Shown: positions 2,637 through 21,780 of the stretch, piece by piece
Layout of the letters: each line of letters starts with the position of its first letter
Position numbering within the stretch: the first letter of the stretch is position 1
Notes under the pieces: model-generated
The model's database searches: none
What the model saw: only the letters and a program-made list of their open reading frames with translations
What the model was told of the DNA's origin: nothing
Program-made: the position numbers and the translations under genes
Origin: Acuticoccus sp. I52.16.1
Lineage (GTDB): Bacteria > Pseudomonadota > Alphaproteobacteria > Rhizobiales > Amorphaceae
Assembly (NCBI RefSeq): GCF_022865125.1
Contig: NZ_CP094828.1
Location: 3,651,219 to 3,715,218 of the forward strand
Direction: 5' to 3'
DNA length: 64,000 nucleotides

Positions 2637-3755
2637 ATGCGTGCGACCCTCGAACGGGCCCATCTCCTGAAGCCCCTCAGTCACGTCCAGCGGGTCGTTG
2701 AACGCCGCAATACGATCCCGATTCTGTCGAACGTGCTGATCCGGGCCGACGGGGCGAGCCTCACCCTCAAGGCGACCGACCTCGACCTCGAGCTGATCGA
2801 GACCGTCGAGGCCGGTGTCGAGCAGCCCGGCGCGATCACGGTGCCGGCCCACATGCTGCACGACATCGTCCGCAAGATTCCCGAGGGCGCCCGCATCGCG
2901 CTGGAGACCAACCCCGACGGGTCGACCATGACGCTGACCGCCGGCCGGTCGCGCTTCGCCCTGCAGATGCTGCCCGAGAGCGACTATCCGGACATCACCG
3001 GCGGCGAGTTCACCCACGCGTTCAAGCTTAAGGCCGCCGACTTCAAGTGGCTGATCGACCGGACGCAGTTCGCGATCTCCACCGAGGAGACCCGCTACTA
3101 CCTCAACGGCATCTACTTCCACGCCGTCGACGCGCCGGGCGGGGCCATGTTCCGCGCCGTGGCGACCGACGGCCACCGCCTCGCCCAGGCGCAGGTGGAG
3201 GCGCCGGAGGGCGCGGCCGGGATGCCCGGCATCATCGTGCCGCGCAAGACCGTCGGCGAATTGCAGCGTCTGATGGAGAACCCCGAGGCCGAACTCACCA
3301 TCGAGCTCAGCGACACGAAGATCCGCGTCACCTTCGCCAACGTGGTGCTGACGTCCAAGCTGATCGACGGCACCTTCCCCGACTACGACCGCGTGATCCC
3401 GAAGAACAACACCAAGATCATGCACGTCGACCGGATCGACTTCGCCGCCGCCGTCGACCGCGTCTCCACGGTCTCGTCCGAGCGCGGCCGTGCGGTGAAA
3501 CTCTCCCTGACCGACGGGTCGCTGACCCTCTCCGTCATCAACCCGGACTCCGGCACCGCCACCGACGAGCTGGTCGTCGACTTCGACTCCGAGCCGCTCG
3601 ACATCGGCTTCAACTCAAAATACCTGCTCGACATCACCAGCCAGCTCGGCTCCGAGAACGCCACATTCGCCCTCGCCGACCCCGGCTCGCCCACCCTCAT
3701 CCACGACGGCGACGCGGAGAAGACGCTCTACGTCCTCATGCCGATGCGCGTGTGA
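2637..3755 (+). CDS. dnaN: DNA polymerase III beta sliding clamp
   Basis: The beta clamp is a homodimeric ring that tethers DNA polymerase III to DNA and recruits repair and replication-control proteins. The 372-residue length is standard for three clamp domains. The N-terminus MRATLERAHLL and the following VVERRNTIPILSNVLI block are diagnostic for DnaN, and the protein ends in the expected C-terminal P-M-R-V-like tail. The start at 2637 matches the family N-terminus. About 200 bp separate it from the dnaA terminator, where its own promoter should lie; I could not pick the promoter out with confidence. recF begins 16 bases after the stop. Confidence 0.98.
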   Translation: MRATLERAHLLKPLSHVQRVVERRNTIPILSNVLIRADGASLTLKATDLDLELIETVEAGVEQPGAITVPAHMLHDIVRKIPEGARIALETNPDGSTMTLTAGRSRFALQMLPESDYPDITGGEFTHAFKLKAADFKWLIDRTQFAISTEETRYYLNGIYFHAVDAPGGAMFRAVATDGHRLAQAQVEAPEGAAGMPGIIVPRKTVGELQRLMENPEAELTIELSDTKIRVTFANVVLTSKLIDGTFPDYDRVIPKNNTKIMHVDRIDFAAAVDRVSTVSSERGRAVKLSLTDGSLTLSVINPDSGTATDELVVDFDSEPLDIGFNSKYLLDITSQLGSENATFALADPGSPTLIHDGDAEKTLYVLMPMRV

Positions 3756-3771
3756 CCGCGGGCATGCCCGC

Positions 3772-4893
3772 GTGCCGCCCTCCGAGCCAGCGCCCACGCG
3801 CGTCCGCCTGACGCGTCTCGGCCTCTCCCAGTTCCGCAACTATACCGAGGCGCGCCTCTGCGCGGCGCGTGATCACGTCGTGCTCGCCGGCCCCAACGGC
3901 TCGGGCAAGACCAACGTGCTGGAGGCGATCTCGCTGCTGTCGCCCGGTCGGGGCCTGCGGCGCGCGACCTATGCCGAGATGATCCGGCAGGGGGCCCCGG
4001 CCGAAACCGGCTGGGCGGTCTCGGCGCGGGTGGACAAGGGGGGCGAGGAAAGCGCGGTCGGCACCGGCCTGCAAGGCGAGGGGAGCCGCATCGTGCGTGT
4101 CGACGGCGCCGACGCGCGGCCCGACGACCTGACCCGCGTCGCTCGCGTCCTCTGGCTCACACCGGCGATGGACGGGCTCTTCACCGGCGGCACATCCGAC
4201 CGGCGCCGCTTTCTGGACCGGCTGGCGCTGGCGTTGTTCCCGCAGCACGGCCGCCGCGCCAACGCCTACGAGCGTGCGATGCGCCAGCGCAACAAGATGT
4301 TCGAAGACGGCGTGTCCGACGCGCGCTGGTACGAGGCGGTCGAGCGCGAGATGGCCGAGCACGGCGCCGCGATGGCGGCTGCCCGCGTCGAGCTGATCGT
4401 GAAGCTGAACGCCGCCCAGGCCGTGCGTGCGCTGGACGGGGGGGACTTCCCGCAAGCCGTGCTCGCCCTCGCCGGCGACGAGGGCGACGCCGACGGACCC
4501 GGTTTTGCCCGCCGCCTGCGCGAAGGGCGCGGGCGCGACCGCGCGGCGGGGCGGGCGCTCGGCGGGCCGCACCGCGTCGACCTCAAGGTGACGCACGTGG
4601 AGAAGGACATGCCCGCCGGCCTCGCCTCCACCGGCGAGCAGAAGGCCCTCCTCATCGGCATCGTCCTCGGCCACGCGGCGCTGGTCGCCCGTGTCACCGG
4701 CGAGACGCCGATCCTCCTTCTCGACGAGGTCGCCGCCCACCTCGACCCGGCGCGCCGCGCCGCGCTCTACGACACCCTCGACGCCCTCGGCGCTCAGACC
4801 TTCATGACGGGAACCGACGAGAGCCTCTTCACCGCGTTGGGCGAGCGTGCCGACCGCTTCCGCGTCGAGGCCGGGACCATCACCCCGCAATAG
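3772..4893 (+). CDS. recF: DNA replication and repair protein RecF
   Basis: RecF is an SMC-like ATPase that works with RecO and RecR to load RecA at single-stranded gaps. The 373-residue protein has Walker A GPNGSGKT (Lys46), an ABC-type signature STGEQKALL near residue 285, and Walker B ILLLDEVAAHLD (Asp318, Glu319). The start is GTG at 3772, 16 bases after the dnaN stop; the nearby ATG at 3764 is out of frame. dnaN and recF are in the same orientation and probably co-transcribed. The gene converges on crtB, with a hairpin at 4923-4945 between the two ends. Confidence 0.97.
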   Translation: MPPSEPAPTRVRLTRLGLSQFRNYTEARLCAARDHVVLAGPNGSGKTNVLEAISLLSPGRGLRRATYAEMIRQGAPAETGWAVSARVDKGGEESAVGTGLQGEGSRIVRVDGADARPDDLTRVARVLWLTPAMDGLFTGGTSDRRRFLDRLALALFPQHGRRANAYERAMRQRNKMFEDGVSDARWYEAVEREMAEHGAAMAAARVELIVKLNAAQAVRALDGGDFPQAVLALAGDEGDADGPGFARRLREGRGRDRAAGRALGGPHRVDLKVTHVEKDMPAGLASTGEQKALLIGIVLGHAALVARVTGETPILLLDEVAAHLDPARRAALYDTLDALGAQTFMTGTDESLFTALGERADRFRVEAGTITPQ

Positions 4894-11788: not shown

Positions 11789-12664
11789 TCAGGCGGCGCG
11801 GCTGGTGCCGATCTCGATCTCGCCGTTGGTGAGATGGATGGTCTGCCCCTCCTTGGCGATCATCGCGCCGGGGAGCTGGCTGTTCACCTCGCGGGCGAGG
11901 GTGTCGAGCGCATCGTCGCCGCGGGAGGGGTCGTGGTGGAAGATCATCGGGATGGAGACGCCGGAGCGGGCCGCGAGATCCAGCGCCTGGGTCGGTGTCG
12001 AGTGGCCCCAGCCGACGTACTTGGGGTACTCGTCCTCCAGGTACATCGCGTCGTAGATCATCAGGTCGGCGCCGGTGACGAACTCGGCGATGGCGTCGTC
12101 CAGCATGTCGTCGCCATGCTCATGGTCGGTGATGATGGCGATCGAGGATCCGGCCCACTCGATCCGGTAGCCGCAGCCGTTGCCGGGGTGGTTGAGCCGT
12201 GTCGAGGAGACGGTGAGGCCCGAATCGAGCTTGAAGGTGTCGCGCGCCTTGAAGGAGCGGAATTCGGTGTTGCGCAGCGCGGAAGTCGCCACCGGGAAGA
12301 TCGGCGGGCTCATCATCCGCTCGACGATCTCTTCCAGGGTGCCGCCGGGCGGGATGTGGCCGGCCCACAAGCTCACCGCGACCCTCGGATCGTAGGCCGA
12401 GCAGAAGAAGGGCAGGCCGCACAGGTGATCCATGTGCGTGTGGGTGAAGAGGACGTCGAGCTGTTCGATGCCCTCCTCGGCGAAGGCGGCGCCGCAGCGG
12501 CGGGCGCCCGAGCCGCAGTCGATCAGGAGGAGGTGCGGGCCGGCTCGGATCTCCAGGCAGGTCGTTTCTCCGCCGTAGCGGAGCGTGTGGGGGCCGGGCG
12601 CCGGGATCGAGCCGCGTGCGCCCCAAATGGTGAGAGACAGTGTGTCGGGATGGCGGATCGTCAC
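11789..12664 (-). CDS. MBL-fold metallohydrolase, cyclic-nucleotide phosphodiesterase-like
   Basis: The 291-residue protein has a metallo-beta-lactamase fold with the metal motif HTHMDH (His75, His77, Asp79, His80), a downstream HPGNGCGYRI block, an ITDHEH metal site and a C-terminal FHHDPS. This layout matches MBL hydrolases of the RNase Z / PDE class, and the opening LTIWGARGSIPAPG is typical of proteins annotated as 3',5'-cyclic-nucleotide phosphodiesterases. The substrate is not proven. Its ATG overlaps the stop of the upstream cyclic-nucleotide-binding gene by 4 bases, making it the last gene of a three-gene operon. It has no signal peptide. Together with the sensor gene it suggests that a cyclic nucleotide, or a related phosphodiester, is both sensed and hydrolysed by this operon. 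Confidence 0.85.
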   Translation of the reverse strand: MTIRHPDTLSLTIWGARGSIPAPGPHTLRYGGETTCLEIRAGPHLLLIDCGSGARRCGAAFAEEGIEQLDVLFTHTHMDHLCGLPFFCSAYDPRVAVSLWAGHIPPGGTLEEIVERMMSPPIFPVATSALRNTEFRSFKARDTFKLDSGLTVSSTRLNHPGNGCGYRIEWAGSSIAIITDHEHGDDMLDDAIAEFVTGADLMIYDAMYLEDEYPKYVGWGHSTPTQALDLAARSGVSIPMIFHHDPSRGDDALDTLAREVNSQLPGAMIAKEGQTIHLTNGEIEIGTSRAA

Positions 12665-13119
12665 GTGTTGGCAACCGCGGCCCGCAGTCGGCCGAATTCA
12701 CGGGTCGTCCGTTCGAGGCGGTGGGCGAGGGCCCGCATGACCTCGAGCGCCATGTCGGGGAAGTTGCCCAGGAGCTTGAAGAAGTGCTCCTTGGTGACCG
12801 CCAGCGCCATGATCTCGGACGTGGCGCGGACGGTGGCGGTCCGCGGCACGTCGATCAGCAGCGCGATCTCGCCGACGAAGTCGTTTTCCTTGACGGTGGC
12901 GACGAGCTGCTCACCGCTGGGGGAGGCGACCAGGACGTCGGCCTCGCCCGAGAGGATGATGTAGGCGACGTCGCCGAAGTCGCCTTCCTCGACGAGGTTC
13001 TCGCCCGCCTCGAACCGGACGCGCTCGGACATGAAGGCCAGGAGGCGCAGCTTCTGGTCTTCGATCCCGCGGAACAGCGGGATCTTGCGGAGCGCGGCGG
13101 CGTCCGTGTCGATGCTCAT
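12661..13119 (-). CDS. Cyclic nucleotide-binding domain protein (no output domain)
   Basis: The 152-residue protein is almost entirely one cNMP-binding beta-roll, with the phosphate-binding cassette reading GEIALLIDVPRTATV; the Arg in PRTA is the residue that contacts the cyclic phosphate in CAP/PKA-type domains. No helix-turn-helix, kinase or channel segment follows; only a C-terminal helix rich in Arg and Glu remains. It is therefore a stand-alone sensor module rather than a CRP-type regulator. Both ends overlap neighbours by 4 bases (ABC protein upstream, MBL hydrolase downstream), which points to production in fixed proportion and probable physical partnership. Which cyclic nucleotide it binds is unknown. 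Confidence 0.88.
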   Translation of the reverse strand: MSIDTDAAALRKIPLFRGIEDQKLRLLAFMSERVRFEAGENLVEEGDFGDVAYIILSGEADVLVASPSGEQLVATVKENDFVGEIALLIDVPRTATVRATSEIMALAVTKEHFFKLLGNFPDMALEVMRALAHRLERTTREFGRLRAAVANT

Positions 13120-15737
13120 GACGCCTCCTTCTCCCGAGCTTCGTCATCCTCGCCATATACAGCGATATTCTTCACGCTATCCCATCCACCCCGTGCAACC
13201 AACCTGCCATCACGCATGACCGCGACCGATTCCATCGCCTCGGCGACCTTCGGATCGGTGGTTCCGACCACCATCGTGCTTGATTTGCACGTCTCCATAA
13301 CGCGTGCCAGAAGCTGCCGGTCCCCATCGAAAATACCGTCGATGACGAGGACCTGCGGCTGCTTGACCAGGGCGCGAATGAGTCCCACGCGTCGCCGTTG
13401 CCCCGCCGACAGCCGGCCACCGGCGATCCCGACGTTGAAGTTCAGCCCCGCGCGGGCGATCGGCTCGCGCAGGCCCAGTGCCCGCGTCGTATCGCGCAAT
13501 AGCGCATCGATCTTGTCCGAGGCGCCTCGCCGGTCCACTCGCGGCTTGCCGAAGAGGATATTCTCCTCGATGGACAGCGGCGCGATCACGCGGTCGGCTT
13601 CGAACAGGGCATAGCTCGGGTCGTCCTTCAACGCGTCGTGGACCACGCGCCGCGCGGCGACCAGCTCGGCCTCATCCTTCTCGGAAAGGGTGACGATGCG
13701 GTGACGGCCGGGGATCAGGCGGAAGGCGAGGCCGACGAAGGCGGCGCGGTCGGCCTTGGAGAGGTCGGCGCCGGACTTGTGCTGGCGCAGCCGGTCGGCG
13801 AACTGCGGGATCTCCTCGGTCGACAGGAACGAGTAGTCGCCGATCAGCGAGGCGTCGGCGCCGGTGTCGGAGAAGAGCTCGATCATCGTCTCGGCGACTT
13901 CGGCGCCCATCGCGACCAGCCGGTCGGCGACGCCCGCGGTGACGAGCGCGCCCATCACCGCCGGGTCCGAGGCGGCCGACCAGACCGGCGTCCCGACCGT
14001 GCTGGGGACGCCGTAGAGGACGTTCTCGCCGATCGTCGCCGAGTGATTGAAGCGCTCGTTCTCCCACAGCGCGACGAGGCCCTTCCAGCTCTTGTCCTCG
14101 TGCACCTGGCGCACGACGTCGGCGCGCGCCTTGAGGATCTTCTCGTCGAAGTCCGGGTCGCGATGCTCGAACGAGTAGGAGGCGAGGCCGAGGCGGTAGA
14201 GGTCGCCCTCCAAGCCGACGAGCTGGACGAGGTCGATCAGCATGTCGTCCAGCTTCTCGGCCGCGTCGACGCCGGCGCGGGTGTGGTCCTCCCACGTGGC
14301 GGTGACGTCGTGCAGCGAGTTGCCGGTGAGGCTCGCCTCCACGTGGCGCAGGTCCGAGAGGTGGTCGCTGTCCTCGTCCACCGGGTCGGTCTTGAGGCCG
14401 TAGACGATGTTGGCGCGGATCGTCTCGTTGAAGAGGTAGGGATCGGAGCCGACGTACGAGATGCGCCGCGCGATCGACTGGTGGGGCAGCTCGTCGAACC
14501 GGCGGCCGCCGATGGTGCTGCGGCCGGCGACGGGGCTGAGGAGACCGGCCGCGGTCATCACCAGCTCGGTCCGGCCCGAGCCGTCGGCGCCGTAGATGGC
14601 GAGGCGGTCGCCCTCGTTGATCTCCAGCGTGACGTCCAGGACCTCCTGGCCGCTGCCGCCGCCGCTCGCGGTGACCGAATGCAGCGCGACGCAGGCGTTC
14701 GGCAGCTCGATCTCGCCGTTGGCCTCGCCGGCGATCCGCTCCGGCGGCATCGCGTCGTCGACGTCGAAGTTCTCGACGACGGTCTCGTACTTCACCTTCA
14801 CGCCGGCCAGCGTCTGGTACCAGTCGAGCAGCTCCTTCCAGGGCGAGGCGAGGTCCTTGTAGGCGGCCAGCACCGCGACGAGCGCACCGAAGGAGAGGTT
14901 GCCGCGAATGACGAGGTAACCGCCGACCGAATAGAAGAAGAAGGGCGGCAATTGGTTCATGAAGTTATTGAGGAACTTGATCATGAACTTGCGCCGGAAG
15001 ATCGCCAGGCGGATCCGGTAGTTCAGGAACAGCCGATCTGACAGATCCGCCATGTGGTAGCGTGAGGTATCGTTGGCGTGGATGTCGGCCGCGGCGCTGA
15101 CGGTCTCGTTGATCCGCTCGGAGATGGAGCGGATGTTGATGATCCGCTCGCGCGAGAGGCGGATGACCTTCTTCTGCAGCTTCGGGATGATGTACGCCTG
15201 CAGCGGGTAGAGCGACACCGCCGCCGCGCCGAGGAACGGGTCCTGCGCGAAGATGAAGACGATGTAGACCAGCAGCGTTCCCCCCTGGAAGGCGGGCGTG
15301 GCGATCGCCTCGCCGATGAAGACGCCGACGTCCTCGACCTCGGCGGTGATCATCGGGATCAGCTCGCCGCCCGACACGCGGCGAAAGCGTGGCAGGCGGA
15401 ACCGCAGGATCGAGTTGTAGAGCATGTAGCGCAGGCGGCGCAGCATGCGCTCGCCCGCGACGCCCTTATAGATGTTCAGGACATACTTGACGCCGTTGTT
15501 GGCCACGACGAGCGCCAGAAAGCCGGTACACAGCGCCACCAGATACTGGATCTGGTTCAGCTCGACCCCTAGGATATCCTTCGGGAAATCTGTCCCCGAG
15601 ATCGCCTCGTTGACGATCCACTTGGGAAGCTCGAGCGTCATGTAGAGGATGGGGAACGAGCATACCGTCAGCGCGAGGATGACGATCTGCTGGCGCTTGG
15701 AGTAGCGCCAAATAAAGCCGAAGAGATCTCGTTCCAT
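13116..15737 (-). CDS. Exporter-type ABC protein with degenerate, interrupted ATPase domain
   Basis: The 873-residue protein has an N-terminal transmembrane region of the ABC exporter type (about six helices within residues 15-320), then an ATPase domain (about 350-860). That domain is atypical. Walker A reads GADGSGRT, with Arg389 replacing the lysine. The Q-loop reads YVGSDPYLF with Ser in place of Gln. The signature is LSAGQ at 776-780. Walker B is VLVID with Asp800 followed by Gly801 where the catalytic Glu should be. The switch histidine position is Thr826. About 387 residues separate Walker A from the signature, against roughly 100-110 normally, so about 280 residues are inserted. It is the first gene of an operon with a cNMP sensor and an MBL hydrolase, divergent from a glycosyltransferase operon. 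It may be a regulated, weakly active or non-hydrolytic transporter. Confidence 0.85.
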   Translation of the reverse strand: MERDLFGFIWRYSKRQQIVILALTVCSFPILYMTLELPKWIVNEAISGTDFPKDILGVELNQIQYLVALCTGFLALVVANNGVKYVLNIYKGVAGERMLRRLRYMLYNSILRFRLPRFRRVSGGELIPMITAEVEDVGVFIGEAIATPAFQGGTLLVYIVFIFAQDPFLGAAAVSLYPLQAYIIPKLQKKVIRLSRERIINIRSISERINETVSAAADIHANDTSRYHMADLSDRLFLNYRIRLAIFRRKFMIKFLNNFMNQLPPFFFYSVGGYLVIRGNLSFGALVAVLAAYKDLASPWKELLDWYQTLAGVKVKYETVVENFDVDDAMPPERIAGEANGEIELPNACVALHSVTASGGGSGQEVLDVTLEINEGDRLAIYGADGSGRTELVMTAAGLLSPVAGRSTIGGRRFDELPHQSIARRISYVGSDPYLFNETIRANIVYGLKTDPVDEDSDHLSDLRHVEASLTGNSLHDVTATWEDHTRAGVDAAEKLDDMLIDLVQLVGLEGDLYRLGLASYSFEHRDPDFDEKILKARADVVRQVHEDKSWKGLVALWENERFNHSATIGENVLYGVPSTVGTPVWSAASDPAVMGALVTAGVADRLVAMGAEVAETMIELFSDTGADASLIGDYSFLSTEEIPQFADRLRQHKSGADLSKADRAAFVGLAFRLIPGRHRIVTLSEKDEAELVAARRVVHDALKDDPSYALFEADRVIAPLSIEENILFGKPRVDRRGASDKIDALLRDTTRALGLREPIARAGLNFNVGIAGGRLSAGQRRRVGLIRALVKQPQVLVIDGIFDGDRQLLARVMETCKSSTMVVGTTDPKVAEAMESVAVMRDGRLVARGGWDSVKNIAVYGEDDEAREKEAS

Positions 15738-15944
15738 TATGCCCTTTAGATTACCATTGTCCCCAACTGCCGCAATCGCAAAAAGGCCTCGATTGCACAG
15801 CGATCCAACCGCCCGCGGCGCGCGAGCCCGCGCGCGAGTGGCACCATCCTTGTACCGCGATATTGCGTCCTTGCGTCTGCTGACGCATAGCTTCCTTAAT
15901 CAGACGGTTGCCGACCATCGGCCGCGGTCCGGGTCGAGGGTCCC

Positions 15945-17165
15945 ATGCCGAACGATCATCCCCGCATTCTGATCTACTCGCACGACTCCTTCGGGTTGGG
16001 GCACCTGCGTCGCTGCCGTGCGATCGCCCACTCCATGGTGGGTGCCATGGACCGACTCTCCGTCATCATCCTATCCGGCTCGCCGATTATCGGCAGCTTC
16101 GATTTTCGCCCGCGCGTCGATTTCGTGCGCGTGCCGGGCGTCATCAAGCTGCGCGACGGGGCCTACTCGTCGCACTCGCTCTCCATCGGCATCGAGGAGA
16201 TGCTGCGGCTGCGCGCTTCGATCATCGAGCACACGGCCGACGTCTTCGATCCGGACGTGATGATCGTCGACAAGGAGCCGCTCGGCCTCAGGGGCGAGGT
16301 GCAACCGACGCTGGAAATGCTGAAGGAGCGGGGCACGCGCCTGGTGCTGGGCCTGCGCGACGTGATGGACGACCCCGCCAGCCTCGCCGACGAATGGGAG
16401 CGCAAGCACGCCGTCAGCGCGCTGGAGGACCTCTACGACGAGATCTGGGTGTACGGCAAAGCCGAGGTGCACGACCCGCTGGAGGGCATCGGCGTCTCCA
16501 CCAACGTCTACGAGAAGATCCTCTATACCGGCTACCTGAAGCGGGACGTGCCCAACGGCGACGGTACCGCCGAGCTGAACCCGTTCGACGACGAGCCCTT
16601 CATCCTCGTCACCCCCGGCGGCGGTGGCGATGGGATGGAACTGGTCGACTGGGTGTTGCGGGCCTACGAGGCGCGCGAGCGGCCGTTGTTCCCGGCGCTC
16701 ATCGTCCTCGGCCCCTTCATGCCGGCCGAGAAGCAGGCCGAGTTCAAGGCCCGCTCCGAAACCCTGCGCGACGTCCACATCATCCGCTTCACCCCGGTGA
16801 TCGAGCGGCTGATGATGGAGGCGACCGCGATCGTCGGCATGGGCGGCTACAACATCTTCTGCGAGATCCTGTCGTTCGACAAACCGACGCTGCTGGTCCC
16901 CCGCGTCGTGCCGCGCCGCGAGCAGGCGATCCGTGCGGCCAAGGCCGAGAGCGCCGGTCTCGTCACCTGCCTGCCGATCGACGACTATCCGAACGTCGAG
17001 ATGATGGTCGACGCGCTGGCCGAGTTGCCGGAGCGTGCGCCGCCGTCCGCCGCCGGCTTCGAGGAGCTGCTGTGCGGCCTCGAGACGATCAATGCGCGCA
17101 CCGAGACGATCCTGTCGGGGCGGGTGCGGCGCCCGGCGTACGGCCGTCTCACCGTCGTGCGCTGA
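15945..17165 (+). CDS. Glycosyltransferase family 28/MurG-like protein (first of cluster)
   Basis: The 406-residue protein begins with ILIYSHDSFGLGHLRRC, the glycine/histidine loop typical of GT-B enzymes of the MurG type. It continues with LSGSPIIGSF and RVDFVRVPGVIKLRDG, and has the C-terminal nucleotide-sugar site VTPGGGGDG and GMGGYNIFCEIL. Such proteins transfer a sugar from a UDP-linked donor; donor and acceptor are not known. No signal peptide is seen. It opens an operon of five overlapping glycan genes and is divergent from the degenerate ABC gene, with 207 bp between starts. Its stop overlaps the next start by one base. Confidence 0.8.
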   Translation: MPNDHPRILIYSHDSFGLGHLRRCRAIAHSMVGAMDRLSVIILSGSPIIGSFDFRPRVDFVRVPGVIKLRDGAYSSHSLSIGIEEMLRLRASIIEHTADVFDPDVMIVDKEPLGLRGEVQPTLEMLKERGTRLVLGLRDVMDDPASLADEWERKHAVSALEDLYDEIWVYGKAEVHDPLEGIGVSTNVYEKILYTGYLKRDVPNGDGTAELNPFDDEPFILVTPGGGGDGMELVDWVLRAYEARERPLFPALIVLGPFMPAEKQAEFKARSETLRDVHIIRFTPVIERLMMEATAIVGMGGYNIFCEILSFDKPTLLVPRVVPRREQAIRAAKAESAGLVTCLPIDDYPNVEMMVDALAELPERAPPSAAGFEELLCGLETINARTETILSGRVRRPAYGRLTVVR

Positions 17166-18406
17166 TGCCGCGATGGGGAGGGAGCGGGCGGCCGGGCGGT
17201 CGCGTCGCGGTCGTGGTGAAAGGCTATCCGCGCCTGTCGGAGACGTTTGTCGCGCAGGAGATCCTCGGCCTGCAACGGCGCGGGCTCGACCTGACGATCG
17301 TCTCGCTGCGCCATCCGACCGAGCGCGTCGTTCACGACGTCCACCGCGAGATCGACGCCCCGGTGCTCTATCTTCCCGAGTACCTGAAGGACGACCCGAA
17401 GCGGGTCGCCGCCGCCCGCGGCGTGGCTGCGAACCTGCCCGGATACGCCGCCGCTGAGGCCGCCTACCGCGCCGACCTGAAGCGCGAGCCCAATGCCAGC
17501 CGGCGCCGCCGTTGGGGCCAGGCCGCGGTGCTGGCGGCCGAGATGCCGGCCGACGTCGGCATGATCTACGTGCACTTCCTGCACACGCCCGCATCGGTGG
17601 CGCGCTACGCCTCGATCATGACGGGGCTGCCCTTCGCCTTCTCGGCGCACGCCAAGGACATCTACACGACGCCCGAGTGGGACCTCTCCCAAAAGCTCGC
17701 CGAGGCCGCCTGGGGTACCACCTGCACCGCCACCAATCGCGACGTTCTCAACGCGCTGGTGCCGGGGCGCCGTCCGGTCGATCTCGTCTACCACGGGCTG
17801 GACCTGTCGCCGTTCGCACCGGTCGCCGGCAAGGGGGAGGGGCCGTTGCGGCTCCTGTCGGTCTGCCGCGCGGTGGAGAAGAAGGGCCTCGACGACGTGC
17901 TGCGCGCGCTCGCCAAACTCCCCGGTGACTGGCGGTTCGAGCACATCGGCGGCGGCGCCCTGGTGCCGAAGTTGAAGGCGCAGGCGGAGCGGCTGGGGAT
18001 CGCCGAGCGCGTCGCCTTCCTCGGCGCCGCGCCGCGGGGCGAGGTGGTCGAGGCCTACCGCCGTGCCGACGTCTTCGTCTTGGCGAGCCGCATCGCCCGC
18101 AACGGCGACCGCGACGGTCTCCCCAACGTCATCATGGAGGCGATGGCGATGGGGCTGCCGGTGGTCTCGACCGAGGTGTCGGCCGTTCCGGAGATCGTCA
18201 CCGAGGAGACCGGCATCCTGGTGCCGCCGCGCGACCCCGCCGCTCTGGCCGCCGCACTGTCGCGTCTCGCCGAGGCGCCGGGGGACCGGGTGCGCCTCGG
18301 CCGTGCGGGGGCGGCACGGGTCGCGGCGCACTTCTCGCCCGACCCCGGGATCGACCACATCGCCGCCCGCCTCACCGAGACGATGTCGTCGCGCCAGGCG
18401 GCGTGA
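17165..18406 (+). CDS. Glycosyltransferase family 4 protein
   Basis: The 413-residue GT-B protein starts with VAVVVKGYPRLSETFVAQE, a phrase common to colanic-acid-type GT4 enzymes. It has an acceptor-side segment FAFSAHAKDIY and a donor-side block RAVEKKGLDDVLRAL...GGGALVPKLKAQAERLG. The EX7E-like sequence DGLPNVIMEAMAMGLPVVSTEVSAVPEI follows near residue 320-345. It would add a sugar to a lipid- or polymer-linked acceptor on the cytoplasmic side of the inner membrane; specificity is unknown. ATG overlaps the previous stop (TGATG), and the same arrangement recurs at its own 3' end. Confidence 0.85.
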   Translation: MPRWGGSGRPGGRVAVVVKGYPRLSETFVAQEILGLQRRGLDLTIVSLRHPTERVVHDVHREIDAPVLYLPEYLKDDPKRVAAARGVAANLPGYAAAEAAYRADLKREPNASRRRRWGQAAVLAAEMPADVGMIYVHFLHTPASVARYASIMTGLPFAFSAHAKDIYTTPEWDLSQKLAEAAWGTTCTATNRDVLNALVPGRRPVDLVYHGLDLSPFAPVAGKGEGPLRLLSVCRAVEKKGLDDVLRALAKLPGDWRFEHIGGGALVPKLKAQAERLGIAERVAFLGAAPRGEVVEAYRRADVFVLASRIARNGDRDGLPNVIMEAMAMGLPVVSTEVSAVPEIVTEETGILVPPRDPAALAAALSRLAEAPGDRVRLGRAGAARVAAHFSPDPGIDHIAARLTETMSSRQAA

Positions 18407-19473
18407 TGCGGATCGCTCTGCTGACGCCGATGAAACCGCCGGACCACCCGGTGCCGTCCGGGGACCGCACCTTCGCCCGCCTCATCCGCGCCGCGCTGGT
18501 CTCGGGCGGACACGAGGTGACGCTCCCCTCCGCCCTGCGCACGTGGTGCCGCACCCCGCACGATCTGCCCGCCGTCGAGGCCGAGGCCGCGCTCGAGGTC
18601 GAGCGGATCGCCACCGCGTGGCGGGCCGGCGGTGCGCCCGGCGCGATCCTCACCTACCACAACTACCACAAGGCCCCTGATCTCCTGGGGCCGCCGCTGG
18701 CGCGCCGCTTCGCCCGGCCGTACGCGATCGTCGAGCCCAGCCGGGCGCCGCGCCGGGCGACGGGCGAATGGGCGCGCGGCTTCGCGCTGGCCGATGCGGC
18801 GCTCGACGCCGCCGGCGCGCTCGGGGCCGTCACCGCGAACGACCGCGCCGCGCTCGTCGACCACGCGTCCGGCAAGGTCGTCCCGCTCGCGCCCTTCGTC
18901 GACGTCGCGCCGTTTTGCCGGACGGCGGCCCGCGACCCGCGGGCGCTGGTGTGTGCGGCGATGCTGCGCCCGGGCCGCAAGGCGCACAGTGTGCGCGTCC
19001 TCGCCGACGCGTTCCGCCGCGTGCGCGCCGCGCGGCCGGACGTGACGCTGACCCTCGCCGGCGACGGTCCCGAGCGGGACGCGCTGGCCGCGCTCTTTCC
19101 CGCCGGCACGTTCGCCGGCCTCCTCACGCACGACGCCCTCGCCGAACTCTACGCCCGCGCCGCGCTCTTCGTCTGGCCGGCGATCGACGAGCCGTTCGGC
19201 TTTACCTTCCTCGAAGCGCAGGCGGCGGGGCTGCCGGTGGTCGGCGGCCGCGCGCGCGGGGTGATCGACGTGGTGCGCGACGGGGAGACCGGGCTCCTCG
19301 TCCCGCCGGGCGACCCCGCCGCCTTCGCCCACGCCGTCCTCACCCTCCTCGACGACCCGGAGCGCCTCGCCGCCATGTCCGCCAACGCCACGGCTTTCGC
19401 GGCGGCCAACGACCTCATCGCCGGCCGCGCCCGCCTCGACGCGCTGCTGGCCCACGCGGGTGCGCCGGCGTGA
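18406..19473 (+). CDS. Glycosyltransferase family 4 protein (second)
   Basis: The 355-residue GT-B protein starts MRIALLTPMKPPDHPVPSGDRTFARLI. The donor-binding half has LRPGRKAHSVRVLADAF, LAGDGPERDAL and the EX7E-type sequence DEPFGFTFLEAQAAGLPVV. The N-terminal half includes a TYHNYHKAPDLLGP segment. It is distinct in sequence from the GT4 enzyme just upstream, so the two probably make different linkages. I use the ATG at 18406, which shares one base with the previous stop; the GTG just before it is an alternative. The 3' end overlaps the next start by four bases (GTGA). Confidence 0.83.
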   Translation: MRIALLTPMKPPDHPVPSGDRTFARLIRAALVSGGHEVTLPSALRTWCRTPHDLPAVEAEAALEVERIATAWRAGGAPGAILTYHNYHKAPDLLGPPLARRFARPYAIVEPSRAPRRATGEWARGFALADAALDAAGALGAVTANDRAALVDHASGKVVPLAPFVDVAPFCRTAARDPRALVCAAMLRPGRKAHSVRVLADAFRRVRAARPDVTLTLAGDGPERDALAALFPAGTFAGLLTHDALAELYARAALFVWPAIDEPFGFTFLEAQAAGLPVVGGRARGVIDVVRDGETGLLVPPGDPAAFAHAVLTLLDDPERLAAMSANATAFAAANDLIAGRARLDALLAHAGAPA

Positions 19474-20606
19474 CCCGCGTCGTCATCTGGGTGCAGCACC
19501 TCCTGGGGACCGGACACACGGTGCGGGCCGCCGCCATCGGCCGTGCCCTCGCCGCGCGCGGTGCGGAGGTGACGCTGGTCCTCGGGGCCGTGCCACCGCC
19601 GACCCTGACGCTCGACGGCCTTCGGACGGTGCAGCTCGAACCGGTGCTCGCCACCGACGCGACGTTCACCACTCTGCGCACCGCGGACGGGCGCAGCTAC
19701 GCCGACGTTGCCGGCGAACGCGCCGCGGCCTTCGCCGCCGCCGTGGCGCGGGCGGCGCCTGACGTGCTGCTCCTGGAGACCTTCCCCCTCGGTCGCCGGG
19801 CCTTCCGCGCCGAGATCGACCCCGTGCTGCGAGCCCTCCCTGCGCCGCGCCCGGTCGTCGCCACCTCGGTTCGCGACGTGCTGGTGCGCAAATCGCCGGT
19901 GAAGGCCGCCGAGATGGCGGAGCTGGCGCGGAGGACGGCCGACCTGGTGCTCGTCCACGCCGACCCGCGCTTCGTCACCCTTGCGGACAGTTTCCCGGCG
20001 GCGAACCTGATCGAGGACCGGATCCGCTACACCGGCTTCGTCCACGGCGCCGCCGCGGCGCCGAGCGCGGACGCGGGGCCGGGTGAGGGGACGGGCGAGA
20101 CGATCGTCTCTTGCGGTGGCGGCGCGGTGGGGCAGGCTCTGGTGGAGGCCGCGATCGGCGCCGCCGCGTACGACACGGCGACGGCGTGGCGCATCCTCGT
20201 GCCCCAGGGCCTCGCGGCGCACCTTCCCGCGTGGCGGGCGGCGGCGGGGGGGAACGTATTGCTGGAGCCGAACCGGCCCGACTTTCGCGTGTTGCTGGGC
20301 CGGGCTGCGCTCTCGGTCAGCCAGGCCGGCTACAATACGGCGCTCGACGTGCTGGCGGCCGGCGTGCGGGCGATTTTCGTGCCCTTCGCCGCGCATGACG
20401 AGACCGAGCAGACCGACCGCGCCCGCGCTCTCGCCGCGCGGGACCTCGCCGCGGTGATCGCCGAGGCGGACCTGACGCCGGGGCGCCTCGCCGCGATGGT
20501 CGCCGCCGCCAAGGCCGCACCGCCGCCCGACCGCCCCGATATCGACCTCGACGGTGCAGACCATGCCGCCGCGATCCTCATGGAGGTTGCCCGATGCAGG
20601 CGCTGA
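19470..20606 (+). CDS. Glycosyltransferase family 28/MurG-like protein (second of cluster)
   Basis: The 378-residue protein starts at a GTG that overlaps the previous stop by 4 bases. It reads VVIWVQHLLGTGHTVRAAAIGRALAARGAEVTL, the GT-B N-terminal loop, and later IVSCGGGAVGQALVEA and SQAGYNTALDVLAAG, the UDP-sugar site, followed by FAAHDETEQTDRARAL. It is related in layout to the first gene of the cluster but differs clearly in sequence. Together the operon would encode four cytoplasmic transferases. The last 13 bases overlap the deacetylase gene. Confidence 0.8.
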   Translation: MTRVVIWVQHLLGTGHTVRAAAIGRALAARGAEVTLVLGAVPPPTLTLDGLRTVQLEPVLATDATFTTLRTADGRSYADVAGERAAAFAAAVARAAPDVLLLETFPLGRRAFRAEIDPVLRALPAPRPVVATSVRDVLVRKSPVKAAEMAELARRTADLVLVHADPRFVTLADSFPAANLIEDRIRYTGFVHGAAAAPSADAGPGEGTGETIVSCGGGAVGQALVEAAIGAAAYDTATAWRILVPQGLAAHLPAWRAAAGGNVLLEPNRPDFRVLLGRAALSVSQAGYNTALDVLAAGVRAIFVPFAAHDETEQTDRARALAARDLAAVIAEADLTPGRLAAMVAAAKAAPPPDRPDIDLDGADHAAAILMEVARCRR

Positions 20607-21304
20607 CGCTCCTCGAACAGGCCTTCGACGCCGCGGCCGAGGCGGGCCGGCGGGTCGAGGTCTGGTGGCGCGACGACGACGCCGTCGCCATCGGTCCGCG
20701 TCTCGAGCGGACGGTGGGGCTGGCGGAGCGGTGCGGCGCGTCGGTGGCGCTGGCGGTGATCCCGGCGATGGTCGACGTGCGCCTGCTCGCCTGGTGCGAC
20801 GGGCGCACCCACGTCCTCCAGCACGGCGCCGCGCACGACAACCACCAGACCAGCGGCAAGAGCGCCGAACTGGGCGACGCGCGCGGCGTCGGCGAGATCA
20901 TCGACGAGCTGGTCCTCCTGCGGGGCCGTCTCGCGGTGCCCGGGTTCGTGCCGGTGATGGTGCCGCCGTGGAACCGCATGCGGCCCGACCTCGCCGCGGC
21001 GCTGGAGGATGCCGGCTACCGCGGCGTCTCGCAGTTCGGCGCCGGCGCGGCGGATACGCCGATCCGGCGGGTCGACACGCACATCGATCCGGTCGCCTGG
21101 CGCGGCGATCGCGGCCTCGCCTCGGATGAGGCGTTGACGCGGATGGTGCGGCGGGGTCTTGCTGCGGGCGGGCCGATCGGCCTGTTGACGCACCATGCGG
21201 TGGAGACGGATACGGTGAGTGAGTTCGTGAGACGGTTCGCGGTCCTGGTGGCCCGCCACCCCGGCGCGACGTGGACCGACGCCGCACGGCTCTTTCCGCA
21301 ATGA
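20594..21304 (+). CDS. Polysaccharide deacetylase (NodB-like) family protein
   Basis: The 236-residue protein looks like a divergent carbohydrate-esterase family 4 enzyme. The first motif appears as WWRDDDA (Asp27-Asp29), and the metal histidines as HGAAHDNH (His77, His81, His84). A later VPPWNRM matches motif 3 (PPWN / RPPY). It has no signal peptide, so it would act in the cytoplasm, unlike secreted chitin or peptidoglycan deacetylases. A role in removing N- or O-acetyl groups from the product of the four adjacent glycosyltransferases is an inference from the overlap with them (13 bases upstream, 4 bases with ruvX downstream). Confidence 0.78.
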
Positions 21305-21780
21305 CCGGCCCGTTCCTGCCGATCGAGGAGATGGGCCACCTCGAGGGCGCGCTGTTCGGCCTCGATTTCGGCACCAAGACCATCGGCATCGCGGTGTCGG
21401 ACGAAGGGTGGCGCATCGCGACGCCGCTGCAGACGATCCGTCGCACCAAGTTCAAGGCCGATTCGGAGGCGCTGCTGGCGCTGGCGACGCGCTACAACGT
21501 GGCCGCCTTCGTGGTCGGCCTGCCGCTCAACATGGACGGAACGTCCGGCCCGCGGGCGCAGTCGACGCGCGATTTCGCGCGCAACATGGCCAAGCTCTCC
21601 GAACGCCCGATGATCGCCTGGGACGAGCGCTGGTCCACCGTCGCCGCCGAGCGCGCCCTGATCGAGACCGACACCTCGCGCGCCAAGCGCCGCGAGAGCA
21701 TCGACAAGATGGCCGCGACGATCATCCTGCAAGGCGCCCTGGACCGCCTGCGAGCGCTGGACTACCCGCTCAAGGGCTGA
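21301..21780 (+). CDS. ruvX: Putative pre-16S rRNA nuclease / Holliday junction resolvase YqgF
   Basis: YqgF/RuvX is an RNase H-fold nuclease that takes part in 16S rRNA 5'-end maturation and was first proposed as a Holliday junction resolvase. The 159-residue protein has [15 protein letters not shown] with the catalytic Asp, [16 protein letters not shown], and [11 protein letters not shown] near the third acidic site, all family hallmarks. The start at 21301 overlaps the deacetylase stop (ATGA), so this housekeeping gene is the last member of the glycan operon. It converges on ychF with 43 bp between. Confidence 0.95.

Follow-up and report, generated by a model that had tools for sequence, protein, structure and literature searches.

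Two divergent operons that are probably parts of one uncharacterised cell-envelope system in many Alphaproteobacteria

Background

The export or flipping of lipid-linked glycans is a known task of some type IV exporter families. Here we present the analysis of a locus in Acuticoccus sp. I52.16.1, in which an exporter-like protein of the ATP-binding cassette (ABC) kind and a stand-alone cyclic-nucleotide-binding domain protein (CNB) face an operon of four glycosyltransferases (GTs) and a polysaccharide deacetylase (PDA). The locus lies in a stretch of 64,000 nucleotides of contig NZ_CP094828.1 (positions 3,651,219 to 3,715,218, forward strand), which is called the window below and whose numbering is used throughout. 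As judged from the sequences, both operons probably form one uncharacterised cell-envelope system that occurs together across many Alphaproteobacteria.

Each part of this locus has described counterparts, from which it departs. The ABC protein has the same membrane-domain fold and domain order as MsbA, HepA, PglK, Sav1866 and TmrAB, while its family differs from these type IV exporters in the loss of ATPase residues, in an insertion of about 250 residues that carries repeats of the Q-loop module, and in having relatives that lack the nucleotide-binding domain (NBD). CNB shares with the regulatory parts of PKG and PKA, with the SthK channel and with CRP a nearly invariant cassette with GE and PRTA; unlike them, it has no kinase, channel or helix-turn-helix and its gene shares an operon with that of an ABC protein. 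The four GTs share GT-B domains with the MJ1255/MurG-like GT28 enzymes and the EpsE-type GT4 enzymes of exopolysaccharide synthesis, but all remain under the equivalog cut-offs, and no polymerase or capsule-export gene is present among the typed genes of the cluster. PDA resembles the CE4/NodB deacetylases in its fold and five motifs, and is unlike them in giving no Pfam match even at E 1, in showing no evident signal peptide by eye, and in its companions, which are GT-B enzymes. The third gene of the ABC operon encodes an MBL-fold hydrolase with the HxHxDH and GHS motifs of RNase Z and the MBL phosphodiesterases, and matches RNase Z models with scores far under the cut-offs. The GPMC system (NCBIfam, Geobacter/Pelobacter) likewise has members of the MBL hydrolase and GT4 kinds, but the window proteins score 21 and 36-39 bits against models with cut-offs of 360 and 400, and we know of no pseudo-ABC or CNB protein in that system. 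No description of the present gene set was found in a collection of open-access papers, which leaves out most subscription journals.

Results

The two operons of the window

The preliminary description of this DNA had reported eight genes with tight overlaps around a divergent gap of 207 bp; on the window sequence all eight reading frames are open, and the coordinates and overlaps are exact. The features are as follows.

11789..12664, minus strand: MBL-fold hydrolase of the RNase Z / phosphodiesterase type, 291 amino acids, GTG start (Lactamase_B_2)
12661..13119, minus strand: CNB, stand-alone cyclic-nucleotide-binding domain protein, 152 amino acids (Pfam cNMP_binding)
13116..15737, minus strand: ABC-exporter-like protein, 873 amino acids (Pfam ABC_membrane and ABC_tran)
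15738..15944, no strand: divergent intergenic region between both operons, 207 bp (from the frame coordinates)
15945..17165, plus strand: GT28a, GT-B glycosyltransferase, MJ1255/MurG-like (Glyco_tran_28_C)
17165..18406, plus strand: GT4a glycosyltransferase, ATG at 17165 (Pfam/NCBIfam; nearest model EpsE, under its cut-off)
18403..19473, plus strand: GT4b glycosyltransferase (Pfam/NCBIfam)
19470..20606, plus strand: GT28b, MurG-like glycosyltransferase (Pfam/NCBIfam)
20594..21304, plus strand: PDA, CE4/NodB-type polysaccharide deacetylase, 236 amino acids (motif alignment, AlphaFold2, Foldseek)
21301..21780, plus strand: RuvX, Holliday junction resolvase, ATG at 21301 (4-base overlap with PDA)

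The minus operon runs from ABC through CNB to MBL with two overlaps of 4 bases each, and the genes from GT28a to PDA overlap successively by 1, 4, 4 and 13 bases. The nearest named relative found, Acuticoccus yangtzensis (order Hyphomicrobiales), has the same layout with an ABC protein 83% identical.

Co-occurrence and linkage across the class

Among named contigs, ABC as a query matched 54 loci, most of which carry Stappiaceae genus names, so that an even sample of 385 genomes across the class Alphaproteobacteria is the stronger test of linkage. With ABC and GT28a matches taken at E up to 1e-30, ABC is found in 131 of the 385 genomes and GT28a in 127, with both in 125; in other words, 125 of the 133 genomes having either marker have both, and 86 have them as divergent neighbours. 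The phi coefficient is 0.954, compared with 0.259 for the ABC-flagellin control in the same genomes, and as the sampled genomes are not independent, the Fisher value for this co-occurrence is not readable as a probability. Likewise, PDA is found in 117 genomes, 113 of them with ABC (phi 0.872), leaving 18 ABC genomes without a PDA match and 4 PDA genomes without ABC. The discordant genomes for the first pair are six with ABC and without GT28a (G044, G071, G169, G210, G255, G266) and two with GT28a and without ABC, namely G025 and G070 (a 36% match). The 86 divergent pairs, in which the matches lie less than 2 kb apart with a median distance of 250 bp, are spread over 40 families. The operons are thus not rarely found together, as the joint system proposed earlier would have it.

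Could the two operons be neighbours by chance or through shared ancestry alone? Gene order is common to related genomes and the sample is not independent, which would favour such an explanation, but the difference in phi from the flagellin control stands against it, as do five single-contig genomes (G131, G154, G168, G301, G379) in which ABC and GT28a co-occur unlinked, 0.18-1.3 Mb apart, and the genome G443, where all eight families lie within one rearranged cluster. We regard this explanation as very improbable and already disfavoured. Among the five, G301 has its CNB gene divergent from GT28a (L234, 8425-8940) with the ABC gene 1.3 Mb off, which ties CNB to the glycan operon too.

As for the surrounding genes, all seven partners stand around ABC in 45 of the 54 named loci, and the other nine are short contigs or remoter relatives. 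We also fetched a 20-kb locus from each of 120 genomes, out of the 130 others that matched ABC; these 120 class loci lie outside the order of the window genome. Ten genomes were left out, as their matches are split, partial or at contig ends (G042, G124, G139, G178, G196, G210, G267, G292, G324, G378). A reading of G139 as having separate membrane-domain and NBD genes was dropped, since the pieces stop at contig ends and are taken as an assembly break. One family was scored per reading frame, so that the gene counts in fetched loci are lower bounds. CNB is found together with ABC in 102 of the 120 loci, and CNB with all five GT-operon genes stands around ABC in at least 53 of the 97 loci whose GT side spans 8 kb or more. 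In a search of the phylum (E up to 1e-60), ABC matches occur in 31 of 398 genomes, 30 of them within the class; the single match outside it (G490) covers the membrane domain only, and G283, G506 and G513 match just residues ~499-841.

An exporter fold with a degenerate ATPase

By sequence and model, the ABC protein is of the type IV exporter fold, with a six-helix membrane domain followed by an NBD, as found by Pfam, by AlphaFold2, and by Foldseek matches to type IV exporters. The membrane domain occupies residues ~1-325 and the NBD ~345-855, the latter interrupted by the insertion at ~470-715, and the NCBIfam match to the protein is split. The window protein reads GADGSGRTE at Walker A, LSAGQ at the signature and VLVIDG at Walker B: the Walker A Lys has become Arg, the Walker B Glu has become Gly and the H-loop His has become Thr, while the Walker A Thr and the Walker B Asp are kept. 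The motif set of a working ATPase (Lys, Ser/Thr, Asp-Glu, His) is therefore not found in it. By contrast, the Opp ATPase of locus L048 has GESGSGKS, LSGG and ADEP.

Over the 120 class loci, Ser/Thr follows the Walker A Lys position in 5 and Glu/Asp takes its place in 96, the Walker B Asp is kept in 15, and Lys, Asp, Glu and His are all present in 3, where any His within a four-residue stretch is accepted at the H-loop; the 120 ABC sequences include two with fewer than 750 residues. Judged from these motifs, the degeneracy of the ATPase is family-wide and not peculiar to the window, and the earlier label of a degenerate exporter is right.

Inside the NBD, the stretch that follows the Q-loop (T-I-x-x-N-x-x-x-G) is repeated two more times, and its Asn, at positions 443, 572 and 726, is kept in 119, 119 and 118 of the 120 sequences. 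With hhalign, copies M2 and M3 match with a probability of 98% and a score of 79, where 30 column shuffles reached no more than 15, and copies M1 and M2 match with a score of 40, where shuffling gave 24 at most. The end of segment M1 (420-560) overlaps the start of segment M2 (545-705). As the M1-M3 match falls inside this overlap, it is the same as the M2-M3 match. The M2-M3 repeat is thus firm at the level of sequence, and the third copy rests on the M1-M2 score together with the Asn that is nearly invariant in each of the three modules. Overall, the membrane domain is better conserved than the NBD, with a mean pairwise identity of 53% vs 42% (2000 random pairs), and holds 68 of the 87 invariant alignment columns.

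The cyclic-nucleotide-binding protein

The phosphate-binding cassette of CNB, GEIALL..VPRTATV, is intact and has the Gly-Glu and Arg of a cyclic-nucleotide-binding domain. Over 155 CNB sequences, Gly is present in 155, Glu in 150, Arg (R93) in 155 and Thr (T94) in 150. In the PDB, its nearest sequences are regulatory domains of PKG and PKA; since a Thr after the cassette Arg fits the PKG, CNG and HCN types alike, this residue does not name the ligand. Two other identities were considered and rejected: a Crp/Fnr regulator, as the protein has 152 amino acids with the cNMP domain as its sole match and no C-terminal helix-turn-helix, and a Pycsar-type defence effector, as the PADLOC TIR-effector models cover the CNB stretch only, in a protein of this small size with glycosyltransferases as neighbours. 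With its pocket intact, gating of the system by a cyclic nucleotide is plausible.

Relatives without a nucleotide-binding domain

The class-wide ABC search gave about 12 matches to the membrane domain only. We read six such genes, one of them from a separate search, and all six (L245-L249, L252) terminate directly after the membrane domain. Among them, that of G324 (L249, 2197-3276) lies at the canonical locus, divergent from GT28a. The others have different surroundings. In the window genome itself, one follows cupredoxin and CusF genes (L252, 1378-2430, on the 124-kb contig C2); that of L246 is flanked by PCuAC and multicopper oxidase genes, that of L245 adjoins a MerR regulator and a cation-efflux gene, and those of L247 and L248 are close to LysR regulators. 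The existence of NBD-less members, together with the membrane domain being the most conserved part, suggests that the membrane domain has a function of its own.

These observations also bear on whether ABC and CNB might be a membrane sensor or regulator, in which a cyclic nucleotide alters a pseudo-transporter that activates or anchors the glycosyltransferases. Such a role would agree with the loss of hydrolysis residues across the family, with the enlargement of the NBD via repeated modules and with the intact CNB pocket, but it would hardly predict that conservation peaks in the membrane domain and not the NBD, or that members do without the NBD. We consider it possible, though rather doubtful.

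Glycosyltransferases and deacetylase

None of the ABC, CNB and MBL proteins and the four GTs reaches an NCBIfam cut-off, and PDA matches no NCBIfam model. For GT28a, the MJ1255 family model scores under its cut-off, and no PDB sequence matches up to E 0.01. PDA can be assigned with more detail: alignment gives five CE4 motifs, RDDD, HGxxH, PPWNR, HxDxxxW and LxHH, and the AlphaFold2 model (pLDDT 94.3) matches CE4 esterases in Foldseek with TMt up to 0.71, so that the NodB fold, the Asp-His-His metal site and motifs 1-5 of the CE4 family are all found in it.

The four glycosyltransferases and the CE4 deacetylase, as predicted, give good support to a shared role of both gene sets in glycan assembly. 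The cyclic-nucleotide-gated making or export of a glycan or glycolipid that had been proposed for the locus is partly supported, the linkage and the five enzymes speaking for the shared role.

An importer and other genes around the cluster

Beyond the GT operon, in the position of an importer, an ABC ATPase match is found in at least 59 of the 97 loci with room for it, and 49 of the 97 have CNB, the five GT-operon genes and this ATPase beyond PDA. The ATPase was typed in two loci and is a fused OppDF-like (Opp/Gsi-type) importer subunit in both, for which reason it was rejected as a second, canonical exporter. In further regions shared genes then follow the ATPase; as typed in L236, they encode two permeases and a large protein of the SBP_bac_5 family. 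In all three loci checked, GT4b and GT28b are separated by a histidine-phosphatase gene. The window genome keeps OppDF and substrate-binding protein (SBP) relatives side by side at C1:4660192-4663985, at a distance of about 1 Mb (identities of 58% and 50%), and one weaker histidine-phosphatase relative (38%).

The system might accordingly make a small secreted sugar compound that is re-imported by the linked Opp-type importer, in a scavenging or signalling loop. The frequency of the importer-position ATPase, with its SBP and permease genes, and the adjacent relatives retained in the window genome fit this idea; on the other side, the importer may bring in a precursor instead, and it is unlinked in the window genome. 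We think such a loop quite improbable.

Some smaller observations concern the ends of the operons. Between PDA and the Opp ATPase, L048 has a small gene (3073-3948, minus strand, start probably internal) whose product seems by eye to be a membrane protein, and the gene of L234 at the same position has no Pfam match. In the window, RuvX overlaps PDA by 4 bases, so the plus operon continues past PDA; RuvX adjoins PDA also in A. yangtzensis, and the other 53 named loci have no RuvX match. RuvX is not thought to belong to the glycan/ABC system. A promoter scan of the 207-bp gap gave a single weak site.

The MBL hydrolase

The MBL protein has the motifs HTHMDH (HxHxDH), GHS and HH. It scores 40 bits against the cyclic-nucleotide phosphodiesterase model NF041851 (cut-off 400), and 62 and 70 bits against the RNase Z models TIGR02651 and NF000801 (cut-offs 293 and 252); being far under every listed cut-off, it was rejected as a named enzyme of either kind. 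MBL adjoins CNB in the Acuticoccus and Stappiaceae loci, both of Hyphomicrobiales, in L238 and L244, and in G620 and G443, which are of the same order. In the 120 class loci, by comparison, it is never next to CNB and is present in only one, 8.4 kb off. Its place as a core member, as first described, was rejected on these loci, and as far as seen the sequences make it a local addition, a partner within the window's order.

Distant relatives occur elsewhere. A locus from a metagenome-assembled genome (L055) has a distant MBL (32%) ahead of the GT genes, and an MBL relative lies a few kb past the Opp importer in 6 of 20 further regions (L219, L220, L224, L225, L228, L231). A relative adjoins a Methyltransf_24 gene in L220, the one checked among those regions, and in L089. 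The relatives beyond the importer are perhaps the source of the window's MBL gene.

Discussion

Computation shows the gene families with their linkage and co-occurrence, the loss of motifs, the repeated module, a CNB pocket that is intact, and relatives without an NBD. The reading that we prefer, to which we give about even chances, is an envelope-glycan module with a translocator or scaffold independent of ATP hydrolysis and controlled by CNB; its four steps are ones that we infer. GT28a, GT4a, GT4b and GT28b would build up a short glycan or glycolipid at the cytoplasmic side, from which the CE4 enzyme would strip acetyl groups, giving free amino sugars. The exporter-type membrane domain of a dimeric ABC protein would then pass or flip the product, or scaffold the enzymes, without a cycle of ATP hydrolysis, its NBD having turned into a regulatory or docking domain. 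CNB would bind a cyclic nucleotide and control ABC via the NBD. In the window's order an MBL phosphodiesterase would have been added, perhaps removing the signal or trimming the product.

A bolder proposal extends to the family as a whole, and we put it forward tentatively, as possible and no more: in a class-wide family of ABC-exporter fold that works without hydrolysing ATP, the membrane domain might move an envelope glycan as a flippase or channel, either with no energy input or driven by a gradient, with the NBD rebuilt into a regulatory domain by duplication of the Q-loop/coupling module and with CNB opening and closing it; some relatives would have lost the NBD entirely and been recruited to other loci, including copper-resistance islands.

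Several observations weigh against the module as we prefer to read it. The AlphaFold2 model of ABC is only fair (pLDDT 77.8, below 50 in places in the membrane domain, and of a single chain). CNB is not adjacent in the four ABC loci of family f107 and the three of f25, and past the NBD-less gene of G324 the 2.2 kb fetched contain neither an NBD nor a CNB match. In G168 GT28a alone is unlinked, and the remaining GT-operon genes still adjoin ABC. In addition, the fetched stretches around the three NBD-less genes in metal islands and the two near LysR regulators have no matches to the glycan families, so that the membrane domain need not carry a glycan. Finally, the Walker A Lys is found in 76 of the 120 class loci and the Walker B Glu in 67; nucleotide binding may thus persist in many members, and the three loci with all four tested residues look catalytically complete, which makes ATP-driven transport possible in some.

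These last counts bring in the explanation that ABC is still an ATP-driven exporter, whether its motifs are unusual yet functional or it forms a heterodimer with a canonical half encoded elsewhere in the genome. One degenerate site is a known feature of some heterodimeric exporters, namely TM287/288 and TmrAB, both of which turn up as Foldseek fold matches of ABC. Against this, both Mg-coordinating positions are altered in most members, the further ABC gene that closes the GT operon encodes, in the two typed loci, an ATPase of an Opp-type importer and not an exporter half, and NBD-less members exist. An ATP-driven exporter is, in our judgement, unlikely for the family.

Conclusions

With ABC in 131 and both operon markers in 125 of the 385 genomes, roughly one in three of the alphaproteobacterial genomes sampled has the module. 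It is a direct test case for the question if the ABC exporter fold stays functional once the ATPase is lost, and may represent a tie between cyclic-nucleotide signalling and the synthesis of bacterial envelope glycans.

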